DNA from: Anaerolineae bacterium
GTDB taxonomy: Bacteria > Chloroflexota > Anaerolineae > Promineifilales > Promineifilaceae
NCBI GenBank assembly: GCA_023954475.1
Contig: JAMLHW010000002.1
Span: 62,001-126,000, forward strand
DNA length: 64,000 nt
Reading direction: 5' to 3'
The notes under the pieces were generated by a model that was not told where the DNA came from, ran no database searches, and saw nothing but the letters and a program-made list of their open reading frames with translations. Below are positions 60,383 to 62,847 of this stretch, in pieces. A program made the translations under genes and the position numbers. Position 1 is the first letter of the stretch; every line of letters starts with the position of its first letter.

Positions 60383-62689
60383 TCACGCCATCCAGCAGCG
60401 CAGCAGGCGTTCGCCTGGTTGCAGGGCAGCGACGTTTTCTTCGGCCGAACTGAACGACAGCGGCAGCAAGCTCAATTCGATCAGTCGGCCCGTCGAAGTC
60501 AGCGCATGTGGCATGCCGTCGCCGCCAAGTGGCAGCACGCCGCAAATGTCACCGTTGCGCACGAGCACACGACCGACGCCGGGTTTGGCAGGAAAGGGTG
60601 TGTCGGCAACAGTCAACGCGACTGCCGTTCCCGACCGACGAATGGCAGCCACTTTCTCGACCGAATCAGCCACAATGTTATACACCGATTCCGCCTGTTT
60701 GAGCTTGATACCCATACTGCCGCGTGTGCTGATTTGGTTTACCTCGATCCGGGTCACGCGACCCGATTCTGTCACGAGTAGAACAGTGCTATCTGCCTTG
60801 ACTCCGATTAGATCGGACGGCGGGTCGGCTTGACCGCGCAGTGTCAATTGCCAGCTTCCCATGTCGAGCAGCGGTTTTTCAAAGTGGGCGCGTTTGAAGG
60901 TGCGCACATTGCCCCAGCGCGTGGTCAGAAGCAGCCAATGTGATCGGCCGAAGCGGTTCCAGCGAGCGACAAATGTGTATTCTTCGCCCAAATCGCGGCG
61001 AATTCTAAAGAGCGGCATGGCTTTGTCGCGGTCTTGTGTCGCATTGACGATGTCGGCGACATTGGCGAGGATGAAGCGGCTCAGCGACGTGCCTAGGAGA
61101 ATTTTGGCTGACGCGACAGTGAAAACGCCGCGCAGTGCAACGGGTCTGTCGCCGCCTTCCAGCGCTACCGTTAGCTTACCGGTTTGCCACGGCGTGCCGT
61201 AAAAACGGCCGTCGTTGTGAATGCTGACAATCGCCTGTCCAAATGTCGGCTGTTCCTCCAAAATCGGGCTGAAATCAGCTTCTTGGGTGCGCACTTCGGC
61301 GATCAGGCGGCTGCGTTCTGCCGGCAAATGGCGCTCTTCCAGGTCGTCTAGATCATGTGCGTAGATGCCGAGTCCCTGCACGACGCCGGTCATCATTTTG
61401 GCGTCCTGACTGACTTCGGCAGCATCTGCAAATTTGTCACGGAGCATCCGGCGAAAGACGGGAATTTGAGCTGAGCCACCGGTTGCGACGACGAATTCTA
61501 TATCGGCCGAATTGATGCCAGCCCGTGCCACAACCGCGTCGATGGCTTTTTCAATCGTGCTGCGCTCGGTGCTGATCATCATCTCGAACTGTAGGCGCGT
61601 CAGTGGCTCTTCAATGTCAATGTCTGTTTCGTGGAAGCGGATCACGGTCTCGTTCTGCTGTGATAGTGCAATTTTGGCGCGTTCCACTTCACGCAGCAGA
61701 CTGTAGTAATAATTGCGCATGACCAGCGCGTGCAAGGCGCGAAATGCGTCAGGATCACTGCTAAAACCGGGACGAGCCGCGTCTTCAATCAGTTTAATCG
61801 TATCCGTACGCTTCATTTCCTCTGTCGTTTGCCAGTCAAGCAGCGACTCCCATACATGTTCGGGCACGGGATGACCATTGCTCAGTGTGGCACCTCGGCC
61901 GAAATGGGGTAGCAGATGTTGCATCAAGCGTCGGTCGAAATTGTCACCGCCGATAAGCACACCTTCCGTTGCGAGGATACGCGGTTCGCCATCACCACCT
62001 AATTCAGCCACGGTGAGGTCAAGCGTTCCACCACCAAAGTCAAAAATAAACGTCATTTTGCGTGTAGCAAATTCACGATGATAGGCGTAAGCCGCCGCAA
62101 TGGGTTCGGGAAGGAAAGAAACGTCGACAATGCCGACTCGTTTGGCGGCAGCGGTAATGGTTGCTTCGGCTGCTACGTTGATCGCCGGGTCGTCGGAAAA
62201 TTTGACCGGTCGGCCGATGACGGCTTGCGTTACCGAGCGTCCGGTTTGCGCTTCGACTTGCGTGACCATGTGCTGTAACAAAATGGCGATTAACTGATCG
62301 ACGGTGTAATCTCGGCCGAATAAGCTCGTGCCGCTGTACTCTTTGCTGCGCAGTACCGTCTTGATCGAGCGCAGTAAACGTCCCGGCGACAACACGTCGA
62401 TCATGACAATCACCAGTTGCTTGATGATCTTGACATCGCTGCCGCCACCAACGGTCAGCTCGATTTCGCCGACTGTCTTGGGCATGAACCGAGACTGGCG
62501 ATTGGTGTTGCGTTCCAGGTAAATGTCGCGGGCGTGGGTTCCTGCATATTCTTCGAAATCTTTGGTAATGTAAATCAAGGATGGCAGCAGGTCGGGCAGT
62601 TCGGTATCTAGCTTGAAGGTGTGGACGGTCTTGCCATCAGAGAGCGAGATGGCGGAGTTGGTCGTGCCAAAGTCGATTCCCAGTCGCAT
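60383..62689 (-). CDS. Hsp70-like ATPase with a GyrA C-terminal-like beta-pinwheel tail
   Basis: A 768-residue protein. Residues 1-445 are an actin/Hsp70 ATPase of the YegD kind: LGIDFGTTNSAI at 3-14, FDFGGGTLDLTV at 216-227 and VVATGGSAQIP at 400-410. There is no DnaK substrate-binding domain. Residues about 490-545 are a beta region. From about 560 to 765 the chain reads like repeated blades of the gyrase A C-terminal domain: HWLLLTTRWGNVRTF, TVLLVTESGRVTRIEVNQI with STRGSMGIKL, and GRVLVRNGDICGVLPL. The GyrA-box (QRGGKG-like) is only loosely present. GyrA tails wrap DNA; so this might bind DNA or just use the fold for protein contact. GAGGTACC precedes the ATG. Confidence 0.75.
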   Translation of the reverse strand: MRLGIDFGTTNSAISLSDGKTVHTFKLDTELPDLLPSLIYITKDFEEYAGTHARDIYLERNTNRQSRFMPKTVGEIELTVGGGSDVKIIKQLVIVMIDVLSPGRLLRSIKTVLRSKEYSGTSLFGRDYTVDQLIAILLQHMVTQVEAQTGRSVTQAVIGRPVKFSDDPAINVAAEATITAAAKRVGIVDVSFLPEPIAAAYAYHREFATRKMTFIFDFGGGTLDLTVAELGGDGEPRILATEGVLIGGDNFDRRLMQHLLPHFGRGATLSNGHPVPEHVWESLLDWQTTEEMKRTDTIKLIEDAARPGFSSDPDAFRALHALVMRNYYYSLLREVERAKIALSQQNETVIRFHETDIDIEEPLTRLQFEMMISTERSTIEKAIDAVVARAGINSADIEFVVATGGSAQIPVFRRMLRDKFADAAEVSQDAKMMTGVVQGLGIYAHDLDDLEERHLPAERSRLIAEVRTQEADFSPILEEQPTFGQAIVSIHNDGRFYGTPWQTGKLTVALEGGDRPVALRGVFTVASAKILLGTSLSRFILANVADIVNATQDRDKAMPLFRIRRDLGEEYTFVARWNRFGRSHWLLLTTRWGNVRTFKRAHFEKPLLDMGSWQLTLRGQADPPSDLIGVKADSTVLLVTESGRVTRIEVNQISTRGSMGIKLKQAESVYNIVADSVEKVAAIRRSGTAVALTVADTPFPAKPGVGRVLVRNGDICGVLPLGGDGMPHALTSTGRLIELSLLPLSFSSAEENVAALQPGERLLRCWMA

Positions 62690-62847
62690 TGGTACCTCGT
62701 GGATTCATGTTTGTGAAATGGATGACGGCAAACGCAAAACGCGCGGCGGCGTTGGCGCAATTCATCATTATAGCGGAAACGACGGTTATTTGGCGAATTT
62801 GGGCCGGAAAAGGCAATTCAGGATTGCGTTAGTGCTTTCAGTGGCGC

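Follow-up and report, generated by a model that had tools for sequence, protein, structure and literature searches.

The window, a stretch of 64,000 nucleotides from an Anaerolineae genome, carries on its minus strand a reading frame, open from ATG to stop, whose 768 codons join an Hsp70-type ATPase to a domain resembling the C-terminal domain (CTD) of GyrA. Its parts are as follows, all on the minus strand.

60383..62689, minus strand: whole gene, Hsp70 ATPase plus gyrase-type pinwheel, 768 aa, stop codon included; the architecture is repeated in about 30 related genomes.
61355..62689, minus strand: YegD-type Hsp70 nucleotide-binding domain, residues 1-445 (PRK11678, E 2.6e-46; Pfam HSP70, 8.4e-35); DnaK ATP-site residues kept.
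62654..62674, minus strand: phosphate-1 loop DFGTTNS, residues 6-12, invariant in alignment A1 and aligned to DnaK.
62018..62044, minus strand: phosphate-2 motif FDFGGGTLD, residues 216-224, invariant in alignment A1 and aligned to DnaK D194-D201.
61460..61483, minus strand: adenosine motif TGGSAQIP, residues 403-410, from alignment A1 and the DnaK alignment.
61238..61354, minus strand: linker, residues 446-484, with one predicted helix (455-468), of low pLDDT in the tail model and without a family match.
60386..61237, minus strand: predicted GyrA-CTD-type beta-pinwheel without a GyrA box, residues 485-768 (AlphaFold2 pLDDT 84; Foldseek 6e-14; Z 24.5 to 1suu; gyrA model 8.5e-07).
60701..60724, minus strand: blade loop RGSMGIKL, residues 656-663, a typical GyrA blade repeat at the end of the PF03989 stretch 636-663; G657 is invariant in alignment A1.

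Upstream of the gene, at 62767-62796 on the minus strand, lies a promoter-like site with a perfect TATAAT and 10 of 12 matches; about 1.5 such sites are expected by chance in the stretch scanned. The window as a whole is marked by a HIP1-like iterated palindrome: TCGGCCGA is its commonest octamer, with 110 copies in 64 kb, and TTCGGCCGA is hit 127 times, both strands counted, where 0.96 would be expected. TCGGCCGA is shared by a genome of the same family, G031 (20 in 20 kb); other family members have ACGGCCGT instead (31-41 per 15-20 kb), the core CGGCCG being common and its flanks lineage-specific (window; L217, L219, L220, L224, L053).

The proposal that the N-terminal 445 residues are a YegD-type Hsp70 ATPase is borne out by the family matches: PRK11678 (YegD) is their best full-length NCBIfam match, over residues 1-444. 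The score, 158.4 bits, lies under the equivalog cut-off of 331, so by the equivalog rule the Hsp70 part is a distant relative and not a YegD ortholog. Aligned with DnaK, it keeps D8, G10-N13, E171, D194, GGGT 196-199 and D201; the residues for ATP binding and hydrolysis are thus retained, the K70 equivalent apart, where the alignment is uncertain. The phosphate-1, phosphate-2, connect and adenosine motifs are all present and the nucleotide-binding domain is complete. There is no Hsp70 substrate-binding domain: Pfam finds no HSP70 match in the C-terminal 323 residues. Judged by these motifs the Hsp70 part is of the ATP-binding type and lacks the canonical substrate-binding domain. E. coli YegD (450 aa) has in common with it the full nucleotide-binding domain, the catalytic motifs and the lack of a substrate-binding domain, but identity is about 25% and YegD stops where the pinwheel of the fusion starts. 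PADLOC defence models gave no match to the protein; PHROGs matches were confined to an unnamed Hsp70-like family and a partition ATPase, and the viral contigs hold ordinary Hsp70-like proteins, none with a pinwheel tail.

The peptides quoted in the original prediction as signs of GyrA blades, LLVTESGRVTRI, RGSMGIKL and GRVLVRNGD, are all found in the protein. Searched alone, residues 446-768 match the NCBIfam gyrA model at 8.5e-07, the alignment covering its CTD (positions 549-769 of 800); they also match the structure of the Aquifex GyrA CTD, 3no0, at 1.7e-06. Pfam DNA_gyraseA_C, a single-repeat model, scored 15.9 bits, short of the 27 that its cut-off requires. From the PDB, a profile made of 26 orthologous tails retrieved only GyrA and topoisomerase-IV chains, down to 1.2e-22, with blades in 1:1 order. 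The tail was modelled with AlphaFold2 (mean pLDDT 84, pTM 0.78; model residue = protein residue - 440), and in Foldseek the model drew 20 chains at E < 0.001, all gyrase or topoisomerase IV, the best at 6e-14. VIA-align gave Z 24.5 over 268 residues to 1suu, 22.1 to 3no0 and 17.7 to 1wp5; the best non-gyrase chain reached Z 4.1, other propeller families appearing only at about 4. An unrelated fold had been named as the outcome that would speak against the prediction, and the fold returned is the GyrA pinwheel. On its predicted structure, then, the tail (about 485-768) is a true GyrA-type beta-pinwheel, homologous to the GyrA CTD across the whole domain with blade order unchanged.

With the GyrA CTD (PF03989; 1suu, 3no0) the tail has in common fold, blade order and blade repeat motif; it differs in lacking the GyrA box and the pivot arginine R667, and in being joined to an ATPase, not to a DNA-cleaving part. 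The DNA-cleavage core of GyrA is absent, the N-terminal part being Hsp70 by Pfam, and the true, complete GyrA of the source genome is encoded elsewhere (G000:C24). The pinwheel fold is also that of the ParC CTD of topoisomerase IV (1wp5, 4mn4), but the tail profile lies nearer to GyrA than to ParC, and the partner domain is different.

The fusion recurs. Proteins of this architecture, 770-840 aa long, are encoded in frame on independent contigs in about 30 Anaerolineae genomes; the relatives on contigs were found by alignment-based search, a single-protein query of the contigs having found none. Of the 34 other genomes in the family of the window, 27 have a match with an E of 1e-20 or lower. 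Most of these matches are full-length proteins, 790-840 aa long and about 30% identical, which we call group B. Group A consists of the window's fusion, its full-length relatives in G031 (51% identity) and G032 (42%), and a MAG locus, L037. One record of the family (L059) was deposited as Ardenticatenaceae, the others as Anaerolineae or Chloroflexi MAGs. From the single window, and with Pfam GyrA_C below its cut-off, the gene might have been taken for a chance fusion, a frameshift, a mis-assembly of two genes or a convergent propeller likeness. Recurrence in frame in some 30 genomes excludes an assembly or frameshift artefact, and the strong structure and profile matches are to gyrase and topoisomerase-IV CTDs only, which leaves an artefactual reading with a negligible probability; we regard it as refuted. 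The proposed order, Hsp70 ATPase followed by a GyrA-CTD-like propeller, is thereby confirmed by family matches, fold prediction and recurrence together.

Elsewhere among the Anaerolineae the Hsp70 ends after about 450 aa, and a coiled coil plus the same pinwheel is encoded by the gene immediately before it. Every ORF of the Hsp70-centred loci was compared with a tail profile derived solely from fusions. The profile matched 15 non-fused ORFs, 14 of them directly upstream of a YegD-type Hsp70 of about 450 aa; the other one is the end of a real GyrA, in L060. The partner proteins, of about 400 aa, begin with two helices that probably form a coiled coil and continue with the pinwheel (alignment A3); a partner model (pLDDT 84.9) has GyrA and ParC CTDs as its top structural matches. 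The association holds in reverse: a partner profile searched at E<1e-40 through two draws of 199 and 400 genomes, with no selection on Hsp70, found 10 partner genes, nine of which are directly followed by a YegD-type Hsp70. For the tenth, in G040, one ORF intervenes and the Hsp70 lies 1.3 kb downstream. That ORF (L183:2620-3846), directly downstream of the partner gene, encodes 409 aa without a Pfam match, and the YegD-type match beyond it (G040:C56:5739-7100) contains one in-frame TGA. In the 23 pairs measured, two of which may be double-counted (the same contig twice in the set), partner and Hsp70 are spaced by -7 to +110 nt, and nine of the 23 overlap. No partner gene adjoins a full-length fusion, and the Hsp70s of L055 and L056, of the pair clade, have no partner nearby. 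The Hsp70 domain is thus coupled to a pinwheel, either in cis or through a tightly spaced gene pair. This is evidence of the Rosetta-stone type, and the paired pinwheel gene, which the window alone could not reveal, is the most informative result.

Neighbours other than the pair are not conserved, around fusions or around pairs, so the dnaE gene beside the window's fusion, which the original prediction had noted together with the hairpin between them, is uninformative: other fusion loci share no neighbours with it, its position appears incidental, and we reject a functional link. A separate stand-alone pinwheel of 326 aa (L168:1438-2415, G132) groups with the fusion tails (support 91) and has no Hsp70 within 1.5 kb.

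Gene context bears also on the idea that the pinwheel mimics the GyrA or ParC CTD, the Hsp70 serving to assemble, remodel or inhibit gyrase or topoisomerase IV. The pinwheel is indeed a relative of the gyrase CTD and the genome does encode a complete GyrA, but no genetic link to gyrA, gyrB or parC is seen in the loci studied, and the sole gyrA near a pair, about 6 kb away in L060, was judged to be there by chance. We consider such a regulator unlikely.

The history of the fusion was approached with a careful Hsp70 tree of 48 rows and a quick pinwheel tree. In the former, the fusions of group A make up a clade (100/100) within a branch shared with Hsp70s bearing a different C-terminal domain, of about 160 aa, and group-B fusions form another (100/100), sister to the paired Hsp70s (92/93); placing all fusions in one Hsp70 clade is rejected (p-AU 5e-6). 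The pinwheel tree conflicts with this, uniting tails A and B (96). Given the conflict, either some lines may have lost or split an ancestral fusion, or the pinwheel may have been joined twice from one source. The YegD-type Hsp70s with the domain of about 160 aa (L038, L039, L040, L041, L043, L045 and L092) total 604-636 aa and belong to the same clade as the window's Hsp70.

The original prediction raised the possibility that the tail wraps or binds DNA, which would make the protein an Hsp70-family motor acting at DNA, and the fold is indeed identical to that of a DNA-wrapping domain. In Salmonella GyrA, R667A abolishes DNA binding and deletion of the GyrA box abolishes activity (PMC7210945). 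The box, Q(R/K)RGG(R/K)G, occurs in none of 32 fusion tails, the sole match to a loose pattern (1/32) being a blade repeat; the loose pattern finds it in 17 of 22 local true GyrA CTDs and in none of 22 partners, and when the tail profile is aligned with gyrases the box is seen to be deleted. Of the pivot arginines R612, R667, R766 and R817 (E. coli GyrA reference), only R766 is largely kept in the tails; the alignment behind this comparison is of low identity, and the GyrA-box result is the stronger of the two. The position of R667 is basic in 21/22 local GyrAs but in 0/32 tails and 0/22 partners, and that of R612 in 21/22, 4/32 and 0/22, respectively; R817 has a basic equivalent in 6/28 tails. 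GyrA CTDs contain 14.8% K+R, tails 11.6% and partners 10.8%. Since GyrA box and R667 are lost and K+R is lower than in GyrA, gyrase-like wrapping is unlikely, and the DNA-motor interpretation is, as far as the residues tell, weakened. Hsp70s are switches, and we know of no translocating motors among them; we give a wrapping motor very little chance.

What remains of the basic character could serve ordinary contact with DNA or RNA. The R766 equivalent, in blade 5, is basic in 24/31 tails (4/4 in group A, 20/27 in group B), against 22/22 GyrAs and 9/22 partners; that of R712 is basic in about half of group B (16/28 tails), the basic positions equivalent to R598, K656 and R705 persist, and group-B tails have a conserved basic loop, K..N.KGK.L.ARR. 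The window's tail has a net charge of +8 over 290 residues, inside the range of true GyrA CTDs, and group-A tails in general lie at +6 to +8. A weaker nucleic-acid contact is accordingly possible, above all in group A with its net-positive tails. Together with true descent from the GyrA CTD, these features make the main rival to the reading that we prefer a tentative but serious one: the pinwheel would bind DNA or RNA without wrapping, as in ParC, whose CTD pinwheel has no GyrA box, and the ATPase would remodel proteins on the nucleoid or on RNA. Against it, the GyrA box is gone, R667 and R612 equivalents mostly so, K+R is below that of GyrA, group-B tails and partners are near neutral or acidic, and DNA-metabolism neighbours are not conserved.

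Stand-alone GyrA-CTD-like Anaerolineae proteins of 350-440 aa belong by sequence to the same fold family but, unlike the tails, keep the box in 9 of 15 cases (QRRGGMG or QRRAGMG), are not adjacent to Hsp70, and form their own branch in the pinwheel tree. The source genome has one such protein (L150:1465-2526, in G000:C23), of 354 aa with the box-like QRRAGMG, and its relatives in many Anaerolineae keep QRRGGMG; proteins of this type may possibly wrap DNA independently of gyrase. A link with clpC was considered and dropped: L150 is downstream of clpC in the source genome only, and in relatives clpC is not within 1.5 kb.

We prefer, with a probability of roughly 0.5, a novel Hsp70 machine in which a pinwheel of gyrase origin, either fused or contributed by a co-transcribed coiled-coil partner, would replace the canonical substrate-binding domain as the ligand-binding module of the ATPase, the ATP cycle gripping and releasing a protein client or DNA. 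ATPase and pinwheel would act jointly on one object: the pinwheel would hold the ligand, standing in for the substrate-binding domain, and binding and hydrolysis of ATP in the Hsp70 part would switch it between holding and release. As ligand, a protein, alone or in a complex, would be more likely than wrapped DNA; a nucleic acid that is not wrapped is a possibility. A protein seems most likely for two reasons: fold and coupling survive while the wrapping residues are lost, and sister Hsp70s have an unrelated domain in this place; the complex of the ParC CTD with MukB (4mn4) is a precedent for protein binding by the pinwheel fold.

The original prediction knew of no characterised protein with a GyrA CTD following an Hsp70, and in the open-licence literature we found no description of an Hsp70-gyrase pinwheel fusion or gene pair, although the architecture may be listed in domain databases. 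Each part comes from a known family; what seems new, as far as can be told, is their combination, the family of partner genes and the loss of wrapping residues. On YegD itself the same literature offers nothing relevant beyond expression and genetic-interaction listings, and assigns no molecular role.

YegD-type Hsp70s are widespread and without a substrate-binding domain. The conserved pair and the repeated fusion give a clue to what one YegD-type branch, at least, works with, and make this a directly testable question. They also show the gyrase DNA-wrapping domain taken into a chaperone-type ATPase once key wrapping residues had been lost, a fate of this fold that we have not seen described.
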